Assembly: GCA_018268135.1 (NCBI GenBank) | Contig: JAFDXD010000154.1 | Coordinates: forward strand, 1-63,076 | Origin: Bacteroidota bacterium | Lineage (GTDB): Bacteria; Bacteroidota; Bacteroidia; Chitinophagales; Chitinophagaceae | DNA: 63,076 nt | Reading direction: 5' to 3' | Shown: positions 4,364 to 63,076 of the stretch, piece after piece | Numbering within the stretch: the stretch's first letter is position 1 | Layout: every line of letters starts with the position of its first letter | Position numbers and translations under genes: made by a program | Notes under the pieces: model-generated | Told to the model about the DNA's origin: nothing | Database searches by the model: none | Seen by the model: the letters and a program-made list of their open reading frames with translations, nothing else

Positions 4364-5062
4364 TTAAGAAACCTGGGTAGTATCATTAACAAGCGCTGTG
4401 GTTTCTACCGCTTGCTTATCATTACTGTTGTGTCTATTTTTAAAAAAACTTTTTTGAAATACCAGGATAGTGATTACGCCTGTACTGATGGCTGCATCTG
4501 CAATATTAAAAATAGGCCTGAAAAATTCAAAATCTTCTCCGCCCCAAACCGGAAGCCATGAAGGAAAATGCCCATGCAATACGGGGAAATACAACATATC
4601 TACCACATTACCGTGTAAAAAAGAAGCATACCCATGCTTAGAAAGTATTGACAGACCGTCATAACCAATGTATTCATTTAACTGTGGGTCATACAGCATC
4701 CCTTTGTCAAATATCAATCCATAAAAACAAGAGTCAATTAAATTGCCCAACGCCCCGGCATAAATTAATGCTGCACAAATGATAAACCCTGTGCTATATT
4801 TTTGTTTGATGATTTTGCCCAGGTACCAAGTGCCAAAAATTACAGCGCCCATTCTAAAAACAGTTAAAGCAAGCTTGCCCCAGTTTCCCCCAAACTTCCA
4901 TCCATAGGCCATACCAGGGTTTTCTACAAAATATAGTTGAAACCAACTGCCGGCAACCGGGTGAGAAGTATTTAACGGAAAAGAGGTTTTAACATAAATC
5001 TTCAGCGCCTGATCGGCAATTACTACAAGCGCAATAATTAGTACTAAATGTATTTTTTTCAT
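4364..5062 (-). CDS. lspA: Lipoprotein signal peptidase (signal peptidase II)
   Basis: Cleaves the signal peptide of diacylglyceryl-modified prolipoproteins in the inner membrane. The protein has four hydrophobic segments and both family aspartate motifs, GNLIDS near residue 120 and FNIADAAIS near residue 190, which carry the catalytic pair. It is longer than E. coli LspA because of a loop between the two motifs, common in Bacteroidota. The frame is open to an upstream ATG at 5074, but the -7 promoter element covers 5072-5079, so that ATG would not be transcribed; the start is the ATG at 5062 (MKKIHLVLI). It shares a strand with murF/alr, but a terminator and its own promoter lie between them. 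Substrates in this window include GldK and GldB. Confidence 0.95.
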   Translation of the reverse strand: MKKIHLVLIIALVVIADQALKIYVKTSFPLNTSHPVAGSWFQLYFVENPGMAYGWKFGGNWGKLALTVFRMGAVIFGTWYLGKIIKQKYSTGFIICAALIYAGALGNLIDSCFYGLIFDKGMLYDPQLNEYIGYDGLSILSKHGYASFLHGNVVDMLYFPVLHGHFPSWLPVWGGEDFEFFRPIFNIADAAISTGVITILVFQKSFFKNRHNSNDKQAVETTALVNDTTQVS

Positions 5063-21349: not shown

Positions 21350-21541
21350 TTTTATTTTGTCAAAAAAAAATAAAAATTCTGCCCGGGTATTACATTTTAA
21401 AAGCTAGGTTGTATTCATTTGTTGCTACGCATAAAATGTTAAGACAGCACCCCTGCTGCTATAGAATGTATTTGTACAAATAGCTGGTTAAAGATTCAGC
21501 ATAGTTACAAGGAATTGCAACTGCAAAAAACAAACCGAATA

Positions 21542-22729
21542 CTAATTAGTTATTTCATTAAGCACTTCAATTATTTTATGGCAGGCTGTGGTAATATCGC
21601 TATTGCTGATATTGAGCGGAGGCACTATGCGAAGTGCATTGGCTGCAAACAGAAACCAGTCTGTAAACACCCCTTTTTCTATTAATGCATCTATCACTTT
21701 TTTGTTGGTAGCAAAATCTTCAAAGGCAACAGCCATCATCAATCCGCAGCTACTGATGCTTTTGATAGCCGGATGTAGTAACAATGATAAAAACAATTGC
21801 TCTTTTTCTTTTACCTGGCCAATCATATTCTCGCTAAGCAATACTTTAAATGCGGCAAAGCCTGCTGCACAACTTACGGGATGCCCGCCAAAAGTATTGA
21901 TATGCCCCAACACAGGGTGATGTGTAAAAGCATCCATTATTTTTTTATCGGAAATAAATGCACCGAGTGGCATGCCTCCGCCCAGGGCTTTGCCCAGCAA
22001 AAGTATATCGGGTACCACCTTAAATTGCTCAAATGCCCAGGTAGTACCATTTCTGCCAAAGCCGCATTGTATTTCATCTAACACCAGCAGGGTGCCGGTT
22101 TCGGTACAGCGTTTACGCAATGCCGTTAGCCATCCATGTTGCGGTGGTATTACGCCTGCTTCGGCCTGTATGGTTTCGGCTATTACGCAGGCAGTTTGGG
22201 TTGTTATGGTTTGTAGGTCGTCAAAATTATTGTAATGAAGTTGTACAATGCCCGGTAGCAATGGGCGGTATGCCTGTTGCCAATACTCGCTGCCCATAAT
22301 GCTCAAAGCTCCCTGTGTGCTGCCATGATAAGAGTTTTTAAAACTTACAATCTGTGTGCGCCCGGTGTAGCGCTTGGCAAGTTTCATGGCGCCTTCTGTA
22401 GCTTCGGCGCCGCTGGCTGTATAAAAAACAGAGTTTAATGATTTTGGCAAATGATCGGTAAGCATTTTGGCATAAGCTACCTGCGGGTTTTCTATCAGCT
22501 CACCATATACCATTATATGCAGGTATTCATCTGCTTGTTTTTTGATGGCTTCTACCACAGCGGGGTGGCGGTGGCCAATATTGCATACACTTATTCCGGC
22601 TATGAGGTCAATGTATTTTTTACCATTTACATCCCACATATAGCTTCCCTCTGCTTTTACCATATTGAGGCAGAGCGGCGCTTCGGAAGTTTGGCCTACA
22701 TGGGAGAGAAAAAGTTGGCGATTGGTCAT
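21542..22729 (-). CDS. Class III (acetylornithine-type) aminotransferase
   Basis: 395-aa PLP enzyme. Motifs in order: GKKYIDLIAGISVCNIGHRHPAV, the phosphate-binding TASGAEATEGAMKLA, VLDEIQCGFGRNG, the PLP lysine in LLLGKALGGGMPLGAF, and HINTFGGHPVSCAAG. Best match by pattern is the ArgD/LysN/ornithine aminotransferase group. No arginine or lysine genes are nearby, so the substrate is not assigned. Monocistronic; the repeat element A sits in its upstream region. Confidence 0.88.
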   Translation of the reverse strand: MTNRQLFLSHVGQTSEAPLCLNMVKAEGSYMWDVNGKKYIDLIAGISVCNIGHRHPAVVEAIKKQADEYLHIMVYGELIENPQVAYAKMLTDHLPKSLNSVFYTASGAEATEGAMKLAKRYTGRTQIVSFKNSYHGSTQGALSIMGSEYWQQAYRPLLPGIVQLHYNNFDDLQTITTQTACVIAETIQAEAGVIPPQHGWLTALRKRCTETGTLLVLDEIQCGFGRNGTTWAFEQFKVVPDILLLGKALGGGMPLGAFISDKKIMDAFTHHPVLGHINTFGGHPVSCAAGFAAFKVLLSENMIGQVKEKEQLFLSLLLHPAIKSISSCGLMMAVAFEDFATNKKVIDALIEKGVFTDWFLFAANALRIVPPLNISNSDITTACHKIIEVLNEITN

Positions 22730-22850
22730 GGTAAAATATTTTGATACAATATATTGGTATGCAAAATTAATTTATAAAACCTGTTTTTATACTTTATACT
22801 TTTGAAATACTTACAGCGCCGGAGCCTCTTGGTTTGTATGAATGCACTGG

Positions 22851-22940
22851 TACTGATTGCTGATGAAAGATAAACTGCTGAATGGCTGCCGGATAGGAGT
22901 GGAAAGCGAAATGAAATGGAGCTTGAAACGGATAGCCGGA
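22851..22940 (+). repeat. Dispersed structured repeat, copy A
   Basis: Shares with the other two copies a left part (TACTGATTGCTGATGA) and a core CCGGATAGGAGTGGAAAGC ... GGATAGCCGGA (22889-22940). A hairpin AAGC/GCTT (22904-22907, 22921-22924) sits at the position where copies B and C have longer hairpins with different bases. Lies between divergent genes. Confidence 0.65.
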
Positions 22941-22982
22941 ACTACTGTTGAAATTAGTTTTTAAGTTGACAGCCCCTACTAT

Positions 22983-22990
22983 TACTTTTG
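22983..22990 (+). promoter_or_regulatory. -7 element before the gamma carbonic anhydrase gene
   Basis: TACTTTTG, a full TAnnTTTG match 21 bases before the ATG. The nearest upstream TTGAC (22966) is closer than usual (14-base spacer), so the -33 part is weak. Confidence 0.45.
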
Positions 22991-23011
22991 TAGTATCTAA
23001 AAATTATACTG

Positions 23012-23536
23012 ATGGCATATATTTTTCCGGTAAATGGCAAGGAGCCGGTATTAGGCAATAATTGTTTTGTAGCTCCAAATGCTACTATTGTGGGCGATGT
23101 AGAGATGGGGAATGATTGTAGTGTATGGTTTAATGCGGTAATAAGGGGCGATGTAAACAGTATAAGATTGGGCAACAAAGTGAATGTGCAGGATGGGGCT
23201 GTAATACATTGTACTTTTGAAAAAACTAAAACCCTAGTGGGCAATAATGTAAGTATTGGGCACAATGCAATAGTGCATGGATGCGTTATAGATGATAATG
23301 TGCTGATTGGCATGGGAGCCATTGTGATGGATAATGTGCATGTGGGCAGCAATAGTGTGATTGCAGCAGGGGCGGTAGTGTTAGAAAATACCGTGGTAGA
23401 GGCCGGAAGTATTTATGCCGGGGTACCGGCCAAAAAAGTAAAGGAGGTAAGCCAGGAGCTGATAAATGGTGAGATACACCGGATTGCAAATAATTATTTG
23501 CAATACAGTAGCTGGTTTAAAGATTTACCAAAATAG
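23012..23536 (+). CDS. Gamma carbonic anhydrase family protein
   Basis: 174-aa left-handed beta-helix (hexapeptide-repeat) protein. The three zinc histidines expected of gamma carbonic anhydrases are present in GAVIHCTFEK and SIGHNAIVHGC, and VIRGDVNSIRLG with the conserved Arg/Asp precedes them. Homologues (YrdA, PaaY, CaiE) vary in activity: some hydrate CO2, some are thioesterases. I therefore assign the family only. Single gene downstream of repeat A. Confidence 0.88.
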   Translation: MAYIFPVNGKEPVLGNNCFVAPNATIVGDVEMGNDCSVWFNAVIRGDVNSIRLGNKVNVQDGAVIHCTFEKTKTLVGNNVSIGHNAIVHGCVIDDNVLIGMGAIVMDNVHVGSNSVIAAGAVVLENTVVEAGSIYAGVPAKKVKEVSQELINGEIHRIANNYLQYSSWFKDLPK

Positions 23537-23618
23537 CATTGGTATTTTTTAAAAAGGATTGCATCATTTTTGCTGTGTAATTTGCGTATTTTTCTATTGA
23601 CTATATAAAGAAATTATC

Positions 23619-23807
23619 ATGAAAAAGTTGGTTATATTATTTATGATGTTTTGCATGATGATGATGCTTGGCGGCTGTTTTATAGGCAGGATGTTTCATA
23701 AAAAAGAAAAGCTCGGCTGCCCCAATGATGCCCGAGGTATGTCGGAAGAGCAAATAAATAAAAGAGCCAATAAGCATAAATTTAGAGCCGGCAATAAAAT
23801 ATATTGA
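23619..23807 (+). CDS. Small putative lipoprotein
   Basis: 62 aa. A Met-rich hydrophobic signal segment ends in a lipobox LGGC (Cys20), after which a short basic tail follows (HKKEKLGCPNDARGMSEEQI). No domain is recognised. It overlaps the longest frame of the next gene, but that gene probably starts later, leaving about 45 bases between them. Confidence 0.65.
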   Translation: MKKLVILFMMFCMMMMLGGCFIGRMFHKKEKLGCPNDARGMSEEQINKRANKHKFRAGNKIY

Positions 23808-23851
23808 TCAGTTTGGCGTTATCCCTATACCTTTTTAAAAACCAAAAACTT

Positions 23852-24154
23852 ATGTGCTACGAATTAAAGACACAATTTGGTGCTACAGAAGCTGTAATTG
23901 ATGACAACTGTGGCATCACAAAATTTTATGCAATAGCTAACACGCTTGCCGAATGCCTTCATGTAGATTTTATGAACCAGGTAGATGATGCCGACACACT
24001 TGACTGGGACTTTAAATACAAAGACCAGTTTTTAACCCTGCATTACAATGTATTTAATGGCGTAAGTATATTGCCACAGCAGGTAAAAAGTGTAAAGAAA
24101 AACCATCATGCTGTGATGGAAGTAGCCAGGTTTTTACAAAAGCAAGCCTATTAA
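23852..24154 (+). CDS. Conserved-looking hypothetical protein, about 100 aa
   Basis: The frame is open from 23804, but the segment before the ATG at 23852 is hydrophobic and atypical, and the protein beginning MCYELKTQFGATEAVID looks complete, so I use 23852. It is acidic, soluble and rich in aromatic residues (DTLDWDFKYKDQFLTLHYNV). No family is recognised. A terminator follows directly, overlapping the rsgA stop codon. Confidence 0.6.
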   Translation: MCYELKTQFGATEAVIDDNCGITKFYAIANTLAECLHVDFMNQVDDADTLDWDFKYKDQFLTLHYNVFNGVSILPQQVKSVKKNHHAVMEVARFLQKQAY

Positions 24155-24181
24155 AAAAAATTACTAACCCTACATTTGTAT

Positions 24182-24210
24182 AAACTATTAACGGCGTTAA
24201 TAGTTTTTTT
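24182..24210 (+). terminator. Terminator overlapping the rsgA stop codon
   Basis: Perfect 11-bp stem AAACTATTAAC/GTTAATAGTTT (24182-24192, 24196-24206) with a GGC loop and T run. It ends the plus-strand gene, while rsgA on the minus strand has its TAA (24197-24199) inside the right arm. Confidence 0.8.
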
Positions 24211-25120
24211 CGTTTATGCTATCCCGTATGTTGAGGTAGCTTAGGTATCTTTCTGTACTTATCAGGCCGCTGTTTACCGCTTCTTTAATGGCGCACCCCG
24301 GCTCTTCCAGGTGTACACAATCGTTAAACTGGCATTGAGATATCAATGCTCTCATCTCCGGAAAATAATGTGATAGTTCCGACTTAGATACATCTACAAG
24401 GCCCATTTCCCTAATACCGGGTGTATCAATTATTTTTCCGCCAAATGGCAAATCAAACATTTCTGCAAAAGTAGTTGTATGCATCCCTTTGCCGCTCCAG
24501 CCGCTTACCTGCTGCGTTTTAAGCAACATCCCCGGAAAAATATGATTGATAAAAGTAGATTTTCCCACGCCGGAGTGCCCACTCAATAATGTAGTTTTAT
24601 CTTTTAAAAAATCTTTTACTGCATCTACCCCTGTGTTTTTTTCTACACTCATCTGCAATATTTTATATCCTATTGGCTCATACCTTTCTTTTATTTCAGC
24701 AAATTTTTCTTCTTCTTTTTTCTTAAATAAATCGGCTTTGTTAAATACAATTATTACCGGCACATGGTAAGCTTCGGCTGTTACCAAAAACCTGTCAATA
24801 AAGCCAAGCGAAGTTTTAGGATCTTTGAGGGTAGCAAACAGCAATAACTGATCGAGGTTGGCAGCCACAATATGGTGTTGATTTTTATTGTGTGGCGATA
24901 CCCTGTTTATATAATTTTTTCGGTTGTATATTTCAGTTATCACCGTGTTTTCTGTATCCTCTTCATCTTCAATTTCTACCAGGTCGCCTACAGCAATGGG
25001 GTTGGTAGATGAGATATCCTCTATTTTGAATTTGCCTTTAATGCGTGCATTAAATTTTTGGCCGTCGGCATTTTTTACCTGGTACCAACTGCCTGTAGAT
25101 TTATAAACAAGTGCCTGCAT
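24197..25120 (-). CDS. rsgA: Ribosome small-subunit-dependent GTPase RsgA
   Basis: 307-aa circularly permuted GTPase that acts in late 30S subunit maturation. An OB-fold (about 1-70) is followed by the G domain in permuted order: NKAD (127-130, G4), then GHSGVGKST (181-189, P-loop), then DTPG near 238 (G3), and finally the zinc knuckle CQFNDCVHLEEPGC near 275-288. Normal length for the family. Its -7 element lies 6 bases from the ATG, suggesting a leaderless message, and repeat B is immediately upstream. Confidence 0.96.
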   Translation of the reverse strand: MQALVYKSTGSWYQVKNADGQKFNARIKGKFKIEDISSTNPIAVGDLVEIEDEEDTENTVITEIYNRKNYINRVSPHNKNQHHIVAANLDQLLLFATLKDPKTSLGFIDRFLVTAEAYHVPVIIVFNKADLFKKKEEEKFAEIKERYEPIGYKILQMSVEKNTGVDAVKDFLKDKTTLLSGHSGVGKSTFINHIFPGMLLKTQQVSGWSGKGMHTTTFAEMFDLPFGGKIIDTPGIREMGLVDVSKSELSHYFPEMRALISQCQFNDCVHLEEPGCAIKEAVNSGLISTERYLSYLNIRDSINEKNY

Positions 25121-25125
25121 GGGCG

Positions 25126-25133
25126 CAAAGTTA
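25126..25133 (-). promoter_or_regulatory. rsgA -7 element
   Basis: Minus strand TAACTTTG, a full TAnnTTTG match only 5 bases before the ATG. The -33 region falls at the edge of repeat B and shows no clear TTG. Confidence 0.5.
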
Positions 25134-25158
25134 AGCGTAATGAATTATGATTTTATCA

Positions 25159-25250
25159 GGGGCTATCGGCAGCAAACAATCATCAGCATTAGTACCGGCT
25201 ATACGCTGTAGCCCTCGTTCCTCGGGCTGCCGCTCCTATCCGGCAGCTTG
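25159..25250 (-). repeat. Dispersed structured repeat, copy B (one full core plus a partial second unit)
   Basis: On the minus strand the core GCTGCCGGATAGGAGCGG ... ATAGCCGGT (plus 25194-25248) contains hairpin AGCCC/GGGCT (25210-25214, 25224-25228). It runs directly into a second left part, TACTAATGCTGATGA ... CCGATAGCCCC (25159-25196). Located between the batA stop and the rsgA promoter. Confidence 0.7.
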
Positions 25251-25278
25251 TGAGCTGTTTATTATAAATCAACAAACA

Positions 25279-26280
25279 TCAGGGGAATTTTCTCAATACA
25301 AGGTATTTCAAAACAAACTCTATCAGTAAAAATAAAATTGCCAGCATGATAAACGGAAAATATTTATCCTTGTAATGAATGGTAGTGGTAATTTCTACTT
25401 TTGATTTTTCGAGGGTATCAATTGTTTGATAAATATTTGAGAGCGATGCGTTATCCGTTGCTCTAAAATACCTGCCACCTGTTTCAGTAGCTATTTGTTT
25501 AAGCAGGCCTTCATCAATAGATACTTTTTGACTTTGCATCACTACACCCAATGGAGTATTAACCGGCTGTGGCGCCATGCCATTGGTACCCACCCCGATG
25601 GTGTACACTTTTATACCAAAAGTTTTTGCCATTTCTTTAGCCGTTATGGGGTCTATCAGTCCGCCATTATTTTCTCCGTCTGTAAGCAATACTATTACTT
25701 TAGATTTTGAAGTACCGCTGCGAAGCCTGTCAATACTGGTTCCCAGGCCGGAGCCAATGGCAGTACCATCTTCCAGCAAGCCATTCCTTATGTTTTCAAT
25801 GGCCGAAATTAATACGGCATGGTCGGTAGTAAGCGGGCATTGTGTAAAACTCTCTCCCGAAAAAATTACCACGCCAATTCTATCCGTTAATCTATTATTT
25901 ACAAAATTGATAGCCACATTTTTTGCAGCCTCTAACCTGTTGGGAGTAAAATCCTGGGCGGTCATACTTCCGCTTACATCTATACATAATACGATATCAA
26001 TACCTTCTCCTTCTGCTCTCTGCTGCTCATCTCTCACCTGTGGTTTTGCCAGGGCTACTACTATGGCAGCAATGCTAATAAGCCTGCATACAAATGGCAG
26101 GTTGCGCATGGTGGCTTTCCACGAGCCAAGCCCATAAGCTGCCGTAGAAGACATGGGAACAGAAGCGCTAAGCCTGTTATTTTTTTTGGAATACCACCAC
26201 ACTAATACAGGTATCAGCAAAAGAAGTAAAAAAAACCAGGGCTGCCCAAATTCGATATGGTTAAAATAATTAAACAGCAC
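25279..26280 (-). CDS. batA: VWA-domain membrane protein BatA
   Basis: 333 aa. An N-terminal membrane region (two segments, about 10-80) precedes a von Willebrand A domain with MIDAS motif DVSGSM (about 100-105), a later conserved Thr and LLTDGENNGG, and a C-terminal membrane segment ends the protein. The start codon is GTG at 26280, which overlaps the end of the BatD-like gene by 11 bases. Bat proteins are linked to envelope stress and MoxR-type ATPases; batB, batC and batE are absent here. Confidence 0.88.
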   Translation of the reverse strand: MLFNYFNHIEFGQPWFFLLLLLIPVLVWWYSKKNNRLSASVPMSSTAAYGLGSWKATMRNLPFVCRLISIAAIVVALAKPQVRDEQQRAEGEGIDIVLCIDVSGSMTAQDFTPNRLEAAKNVAINFVNNRLTDRIGVVIFSGESFTQCPLTTDHAVLISAIENIRNGLLEDGTAIGSGLGTSIDRLRSGTSKSKVIVLLTDGENNGGLIDPITAKEMAKTFGIKVYTIGVGTNGMAPQPVNTPLGVVMQSQKVSIDEGLLKQIATETGGRYFRATDNASLSNIYQTIDTLEKSKVEITTTIHYKDKYFPFIMLAILFLLIEFVLKYLVLRKFP

Positions 26281-27220
26281 CCTTATCCAATTTATTTTGT
26301 TTAAATATTTTCTCCAGCATGTCTATTGCGGCTTTAATATCTTCCATACTTTTTTTATGCTCAGCATCCGACGAAATATATTTTGCAAACTTAACGGCAT
26401 CGCCTGTACGCAAAGCTTCGGCTATCATTGGCACTACCTCATTTGCATTTGCCTGTTTTAAGCTTAGCAATACATCGCCGGTAGTACGGTTCATCAAATT
26501 TTGTCTGTTCATCCGGCTAAGGTATTTTTTAAAAATATTAGCTAAAGCGGTATGGTACTCTTTAATTTCTGCCGACTCATGCAGGTTATATTTTGTGCAA
26601 TCTTTTAATGACTGCATGGCTTCATCGTATGGCGAAAGAGATGAACTGAAAACCGGCTTTGCTTTTTTGGGCCTGTTTTTAAAATACCTGTAAAGCAATA
26701 TAAATATGATAATAGCCGATACAATTCCGGCAATAATGTACATCCAGGAATTATCAATTACAAATACATCCATCACGGGTTTTATATCCCTAAGCTGGCC
26801 GGTACTATCTGCAGGGGCATAGCCCACATTAATAATGGCCGAATCTGCCATGATGGTATAATCTTTTGAAACATTGGTAATTTTTATAGGAAAAGAAGGA
26901 AGGGCCCATTTGCCGGAATCAAAGCTGGTTAATACTATTCGCTGCATTACCAGGTAATGACCATTGGCATCTGTAGAGTCGGATTTTAATTTGCTAATAA
27001 TATCAAAATGAGGAAAAGAATCCGGAAGGTTAAACTCAATGGTATAATTAGTGTTGGGCAATACAAACTTCAGTTCGTAATGAATTTGTTCTCCTATTAA
27101 AATTGATTTTTTATCAATACTTGTTTGCAGGCTTTGCGAAAAACTTTTTTGTACACACAGGGCAGAACAGGCAAATATTGCTATACTAAAAATAAGAATA
27201 CTGGTTTTTCTGCTTAACAT
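26270..27220 (-). CDS. BatD/DUF4381-like membrane protein
   Basis: 316 aa with signal peptide (to SFSQ), an extracytoplasmic beta-rich domain (IGEQIHYELKF near 42), one membrane segment (MYIIAGIVSAIIIFILL, about 160-176) and a cytoplasmic helical domain (EIKEYHTALANIFKKYLSRM). The layout and the operon moxR-DUF58-this-batA identify it as the BatD-like/DUF4381 component, shorter than classical BatD. Biochemical role unknown. Confidence 0.75.
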   Translation of the reverse strand: MLSRKTSILIFSIAIFACSALCVQKSFSQSLQTSIDKKSILIGEQIHYELKFVLPNTNYTIEFNLPDSFPHFDIISKLKSDSTDANGHYLVMQRIVLTSFDSGKWALPSFPIKITNVSKDYTIMADSAIINVGYAPADSTGQLRDIKPVMDVFVIDNSWMYIIAGIVSAIIIFILLYRYFKNRPKKAKPVFSSSLSPYDEAMQSLKDCTKYNLHESAEIKEYHTALANIFKKYLSRMNRQNLMNRTTGDVLLSLKQANANEVVPMIAEALRTGDAVKFAKYISSDAEHKKSMEDIKAAIDMLEKIFKQNKLDKGAV

Positions 27221-62897: not shown

Positions 62898-62982
62898 ACA
62901 ACAAAATAAAGGCTGCAAAAAAAGCTAAAAATTTGAATAGCTGCCTAAACCTATAAAGATATTAAAGAGTGAAATACCTGCC

Positions 62983-63076
62983 TACACTAATGCTGCTATG
63001 CAAACCGGGGCTGAAAAAAATAGCCCCGATAGTAATGGAAAGCCCGGTGAGGCCTATGTGCAGGGCTTGTGCCGGA
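62983..63076 (+). repeat. Dispersed structured repeat, copy C (cut by the window end)
   Basis: TACACTAATGCTG left part, hairpin CGGGGCT/AGCCCCG (63006-63012, 63022-63028), core CCGATAGTAATGGAAAGCCCG, and a second hairpin AAGCCC/GGGCTT (63040-63045, 63063-63068). The right end continues past the window. Confidence 0.7.

Follow-up and report, generated by a model that had tools for sequence, protein, structure and literature searches.

The window analysed here, a stretch of 63,076 nucleotides from a Chitinophagaceae genome (NCBI GenBank assembly GCA_018268135.1, contig JAFDXD010000154.1; the genome is called G000 below), contains three copies, A, B and C, of a repeat in which a hairpin is kept while its bases change. 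A first-pass annotation saw in this a sign of selection on structure and left it open whether the structure is formed by RNA or by DNA, which is the question that this locus raises. The evidence presented below leans toward DNA, and we consider it fairly probable that the repeat is, in this genome, a small non-autonomous mobile DNA element and not an RNA gene.

Identity of the three repeats

All three copies are real and, as had been annotated, each sits between the main ORFs of the window (the core of copy A in a gap of 282 nt separating two divergent ORFs, that of copy B in one of 158 nt). They are new members of a known family, Flavo-1 (Rfam RF01705), which the annotation had put forward as a guess. 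In a relaxed Rfam scan of positions 22700-25400, copy A was matched at 22880-22946 (+) with 37.9 bits (E 7.3e-6) and copy B at 25188-25252 (-) with 34.7 bits (E 5.4e-5), both just below the gathering score of 42; at the gathering score itself the whole window gives no Rfam match. Copy C stops at 63076, where the contig ends. Positions 62952-63076 (125 bases) recur unchanged at one end of contig C150, the two contigs overlapping in the assembly at this repeat, and the intact version there (4430-4513, minus strand) scores 48.9 bits, above the gathering score. Because copy C is truncated, its hairpin had been annotated with the wrong partner: AAGCCC/GGGCTT is an artefact, and on C150 the AAG of the left arm pairs with the CTT of GGACTTG. 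A two-arm core scanner, retrained without the window copies before they were scored, gave 56.0 for copy A and 48.3 for copy B, while 20 mononucleotide shuffles of the window never exceeded 18.1. Likewise, GGATAGCCGGA with up to two mismatches occurs 16 times in the window against 6.60 expected (0 of 100 shuffles), whereas the plain motif GGATAGNNNTGGAAAGC with up to three mismatches is not significant there (5 matches against 5.27 expected). The sequence TACTAATGCTGATGA, described in the annotation as the left part of the repeat, is indeed found in degenerate form to the left of the core in copies A and C, but in copy B it lies to the right.

Table 1. Features of the three Flavo-1 copies, in window coordinates
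Feature	Position	Strand	Basis or remark
Copy A, left flanking module, degenerate TACTAATGCTGATGA	22851..22866	+	Specific to this lineage
Copy A, possible outer stem, left side GGCTG	22884..22888	+	Inferred by reading the sequence
Copy A, Flavo-1 core, both arms and central hairpin	22889..22940	+	Rfam, scanner
Copy A, left arm CCGGATAGGAGTGGAAAGC	22889..22907	+	Loop bases 22896-22898 and 22901-22903
Copy A, right arm	22921..22940	+	Loop bases 22925-22927 and 22930-22932, opposite those of the left arm
Copy A, right end CAGCCCC, possible partner of GGCTG	22970..22976	+	Inferred, as for GGCTG
Copy B, right flanking module TACTAATGCTGATGAT, right of core	25178..25194	-	Sequence
Copy B, Flavo-1 core	25194..25243	-	Rfam, scanner
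Copy C, left arm (from about 63025) and hairpin, truncated	63025..63076	+	Intact on contig C150

Copy number, distribution and flanking modules

The repeat had been described as a dispersed family, and further copies are present in number. G000 (3.27 Mb in 166 contigs) gives 59 matches at E<=1, of which 58 are below 0.005 and 31 over the cut-off; this count is a lower bound, as 150 of 816 candidates were scored and copy B is itself absent from the matches listed. At E<=1, 5 of 14 control genomes also give matches, none of them over the cut-off. Among 18 genus relatives, 12 have no match at E<=0.001 and six have 1 to 4, and G019, from another family of the same order, has 106. Under stricter filters, an even sample across the phylum gave a match at E<=1e-4 in 38 of 247 genomes. 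Many copy-rich genomes fall in genus g25, which we take to be Flavobacterium. The combination of right arm and module typical of G000 was found in one record, from Flavobacterium laiguense, among 84,980 species genomes (the genome of the window is possibly not one of these), and viral contigs searched with one g25-type pattern gave 0 matches.

The core, of about 50-90 nt, is present at many intergenic sites of G000 and is flanked by modules that depend on the lineage: AATGCTGAT in G000, TTCTTTTGAAAAC in G234 and ACGAAGC in G019. These modules lie to the left of the core and in some copies also to its right, in the same orientation, and many copies have GCTTC, GCTCC or AGCCC as their right end. 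In G000, right-hand genes that converge on the element often have their stop codon at a distance of 33-47 nt from the core, past the right end and an A-rich run. Target duplications show no general excess; one of 48 window pairs in G000 had a z of 3.5, which is unconvincing given the many tests. An 8-base repeat around copy B, ATCAGGGG, was not counted as a target duplication since it includes the conserved right-end bases.

A conserved fold with two 3x3 loops

A motif like GATWGNARYGGAWAG stands on either side of the central hairpin as a direct repeat, and its two copies come to oppose each other when the strand is folded. The result is a long helix interrupted by two 3x3 loops, in each of which 5'-GNA faces 5'-GNA, with two base pairs between the loops. 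Read from the outside inwards, P1 is followed by an A-G mismatch, two pairs and the outer 3x3 loop, and then by two R-Y pairs, the second 3x3 loop and the inner stem; the hairpin that closes the helix changes its sequence freely. We placed 55 of the 60 listed G000 copies, the other five being scored by the scanner and kept outside the alignment; the arm-based alignment has 54 rows, without the truncated copy C, and one row was re-anchored by hand. The outer loop has G opposite A, and A opposite G, in 54 of 54 rows each, and 11 combinations of its middle bases occur. The second loop is less constant, with G-A as its first pair in 52 of 54 rows and A-G as its last in only 30 of 54. The consensus of RF01705 has the identical pairs, both 3x3 loops included, and the same core sequence.

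The covarying hairpin of the annotation is borne out in 50 distinct copies, where 97.6% of 550 pair cells pair compared with 71.6% in shuffles, changes occur on both sides at 10 of the 11 pairs, and the covariation is 0.661 against 0.174 when shuffled. When the partners are slid by 1-3 columns, pairing drops to 28.7-45.8%. One of five covariation measures, "further pair types", showed no excess (19 against 17.0; 60 of 500). A GTAG-type tetranucleotide at the hairpin foot, as expected of a REP element, was not found in the listed copies, in which the 5' foot, read by eye, is AGCC, GCTG or similar.

Loops of this kind are known from other contexts. In the GXA/AYG sheared-pair motif of DNA, and in the 5'YGGA/3'RAAG loops of RNA, two G-A pairs surround a free middle pair. 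The resemblance to the Flavo-1 loops is one of sequence alone, and those motifs are known as isolated structures, not as the paired heart of a repeat family. Searching the literature on sheared pairs yielded nothing useful.

Empty sites in relatives and turnover in place

The stretch 21400-26500 was searched in 39 genus relatives, and the gap could be read in 32 of them for copy A and in 33 for copy B. Both scanner and BLAST found locus A without the element in all 32 and locus B without it in all 33 (for ten of the B loci a single flank was anchored and about 500 bases past it were read). As a positive control, the scanner detected 7 of 7 known copies elsewhere in the relatives. In alignments of ten relatives per locus the neighbouring genes lie nearer each other in most; the gap of G004 at locus A is longer. 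Loss in all relatives in place of a gain here is, strictly speaking, still compatible with these empty sites.

For locus L124 of G234 the search covered 121 genomes of the same genus, of which the best 19 relatives were read. In 11 of these 19 the scanner accepted a core about 20 nt upstream of the same start codon; of the others, six are without a core, one has half and one has a degenerate core. Across the 11 relatives and the query, 128 of 132 pairs are Watson-Crick. In an ungapped comparison the arms have a mean identity of 72%, as against 84% over the next 100 coding bases, and the central hairpin is different in 62 of 66 pairwise cases. Within G234, 23 of 30 hairpins fall into three loosely defined types, and the same types reappear at the orthologous L124 site. 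In addition, a 1.7-kb duplication with 96% identity (L128 and L146) differs in hairpin and right arm, the exchanged copy having two broken pairs as judged by eye. We read this turnover of hairpin and arms as gene conversion or re-copying between elements.

Two further observations concern such sites. Species of g25 without Flavo-1 at the L124 site (L191, L194, L196, L198, L199) have a different, AAGCTTAAAGC-like repeat upstream of the same start codon. In the relative L190 a core has seemingly been lost between the TAGC words at its feet, leaving TCTAGCTCT, which resembles a slippage deletion across the hairpin.

RNA or DNA

The Flavo-1 RNA motif is described by Weinberg et al. 2010 (PMC2864571), and Rfam files RF01705 under "Gene; sRNA" with no function given. 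A review section on the most abundant small RNAs names it without stating a function (PMC9029176). According to a transcriptome study of Flavobacterium psychrophilum (PMC9723704), several 5' regions coincide with Flavo-1, and hits occur in either sense, many of them outside transcribed regions.

A structured RNA, as Rfam has it, would be a multicopy element acting either as an independent sRNA or as a 5' leader. Such a reading agrees with covariation seen on one strand, with those 5' regions of F. psychrophilum and, for a leader, with the element before the start codon in 11 of 19 relatives at L124, where the pairs of 12 sequences are largely intact. Orientation relative to the genes, on the other hand, is inconsistent. 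For the left and right neighbours of the 55 G000 copies, directions relative to the element were -/- in 16, -/+ in 14, +/+ in 11 and +/- in 8, with six one-sided; for the 30 G234 copies they were -/+ in 9, -/- in 9, +/+ in 7 and +/- in 4, with one neighbour missing (these calls use a simple longest-ORF rule; 5 of the 55 and 2 of the 30 matches overlap an ORF so defined). Left-hand genes show a weak bias, 50 reading away from the element and 30 towards it, which right-hand genes, at 44 and 39, do not share. Among 49 copies that could be classed, 170 of 176 pairs are intact in the -/- class, in which the folded direction is read by neither neighbour, compared with 356 of 363 in the remaining three classes.

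The wobble pairs also count against RNA, since an RNA helix is expected to tolerate G-U over A-C. Out of 1089 pair cells in three genomes, 1057 are Watson-Crick, 3 are G-T, 7 are A-C and 22 are other, so that G-T is no commoner than A-C; a small control of eight tRNAs had 87 Watson-Crick, 5 G-U, 0 A-C and 4 other among 96. Near absence from close relatives and empty orthologous sites are likewise at odds with a structured RNA. Single-sequence folding separates neither strand nor molecule: as DNA, copy A takes the consensus fold, weakly (z -0.89), and copy B a different fold; as RNA, copy A takes a different fold, and both strands of L124 fold alike. Taken together, gene direction, wobble pairs, the pairing kept in every direction class and the transcriptome study lean, indirectly, against Flavo-1 acting as RNA and leave room for an RNA role at some sites; as an account of the family we regard structured RNA as unlikely. 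Unlike the RNA gene filed by Rfam, the G000 copies appear to act as mobile DNA, dispersed through the genome and with flanks that are larger and specific to the lineage.

Alternatively, the host itself might profit from the folded strand as a binding site, such as a single-stranded DNA structure used in replication or recombination, with spread being secondary. The invariant G-A and A-G pairs of the outer loop (54 of 54 each) and the renewal in place at one site fit this, but with 12 of 18 genus relatives lacking any match it would perform no general service. Nor is there a significant replication-strand bias in three single-contig genomes (54 against 40, p=0.18), in a test that takes base 1 as the origin and the opposite point as the terminus; a DnaA signature was seen within the first 12 kb in G198 and G131 but not in G234, and GC skew as sampled in G198 is irregular. 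We regard a host-serving site as very improbable.

Candidate mechanisms of mobility

If Flavo-1 is mobile DNA, it might be an ordinary MITE or be carried by one, moving as double-stranded DNA through a transposase specific for terminal inverted repeats; the folded core would then be a passenger with its own role. It resembles the MITEs of DDE transposons in being non-autonomous and dispersed, and sites that are filled in one genome and empty in its relatives, expected of a MITE or of any other mobile repeat, were found at loci A and B. Moreover, some copies do lie inside such an element: in C1-C113 of G019, 10 of the 55 Flavo-1 matches listed are within a repeat with inverted ends GACAAGTTTATC. 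In G000 itself, in contrast, no terminal inverted repeats and no convincing target duplications were found. Inverted matches across the core are not in excess in G000 (14 against 13.9 expected) or G234 (9 against 7.4); terminal inverted repeats are a property of part of the G019 copies. The GACAAGTTTATC end word shows no enrichment in G000, where it occurs 10 times and the control word 24 times. Riding in the GACAAGTTTATC-ended repeat may help to explain the high number in G019, not that in G000, and as a general explanation a MITE seems to us quite unlikely, though less so than the host-serving site above and the REP element considered next. That Flavo-1 is itself a REP element moved by a Y1 transposase (RAYT/TnpA-REP) is suggested by dispersed intergenic hairpins with conserved mismatches, which like REP/REPIN are small and non-autonomous, and by a Bacteroidetes Y1 subclass (2.6) with atypical flanking structures and copies elsewhere in the genome, as described in PMC6006769. 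The Flavo-1 core is much longer, however, has two purine-rich loops, and lacks an adjoining cognate Y1 gene: no clear Flavo-1 was found within about 1.5 kb of 60 Y1 transposase loci in 17 genomes (a single locus gave a weak score, 19.2, and contig ends truncate some of the loci), nor by Rfam in the 20 of these loci also scanned. Among seven RAYT-like loci, three have GGCACGGATTGCAAATCCG-type flanking repeats, one a similar hairpin and three neither, and in G246, with no Y1 match at E<=1e-4, 18 of 18 scored Flavo-1 candidates match. Of all the explanations considered, a REP element is the least probable.

Several repeats met in these searches deserve mention in their own right. The G019 repeat with GACAAGTTTATC ends measures about 235-285 bp (L074 at 2691 and 5011, L080 at 4117, L086 at 231, L078 at 1509); its end words number 293 with up to one mismatch against 58 in the control, some copies enclose a Flavo-1 core, and that of L080 at 4117 has a seeming 8-base direct repeat, AGAAATAT, at its ends. 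The RAYT-like loci L292, L274 and L286 are flanked by GGCACGGATTGCAAATCCGCGC-type hairpin repeats, with a similar hairpin at L282, and these are probably the cognate REP of this Bacteroidota RAYT subclass. Another repeat of G000, roughly 175 bp long, has the inverted ends CCACTGGCGCAG/CTGCGCCAGTGG (L225, L233, L237 and L240, on contigs C52, C162, C102 and C97) and lies in a mosaic with small genes, one of them PIN-domain toxin-like as judged by eye. An apparent insertion inside another repeat on contig C52 proved to be adjacency only.

Other candidates for a mobiliser were no more productive, and the failure to find a mobilising gene, defined ends or a target duplication counts against the mobile reading. 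Reverse transcriptase (PF00078), present in 6 of 13 genomes, has no match in the copy-rich G000 and G234. We clustered 405 ORFs beside copies in three genomes in search of an autonomous form, and the largest clusters had four members and ordinary-looking genes; no widely recurring protein adjoins the copies. Five same-direction copies of G234 (478-510 kb) suggested an integron-like array, but their spacing is irregular and no cassettes were seen, and the genes enclosed by pairs of inverted copies about 2.3-2.4 kb apart in G019 differ from pair to pair.

The mobile DNA repeat that we favour could work as follows. The conserved object would be one DNA strand, folded while single-stranded, and the folded strand would be recognised by a trans-acting enzyme. 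Copies at old sites would be renewed through gene conversion or re-copying from other elements, and copies so renewed are expected to change hairpin and arms in blocks while pairing persists. More tentatively, and with rather less confidence than in mobility as such, Flavo-1 may represent a class of mobile DNA of the Bacteroidota, defined by a folded single strand with two GNA/GNA loops and served by an enzyme that is neither Y1 nor reverse transcriptase, with hairpins exchanged as blocks and old copies renewed in place. In the literature covered, which consisted of partial texts and few subscription papers, we found no description of Flavo-1 as a mobile DNA repeat.

Implications

If Flavo-1 is indeed mobile DNA, its small-RNA entry, and annotations drawn from that entry, mislead, and covariation that has been read as a sign of RNA would instead mark a folded DNA substrate. 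The family would then allow the use of wobble pairs to distinguish RNA from DNA structure to be put to the test, and would motivate a search for an unrecognised mobilising enzyme in the Bacteroidota.
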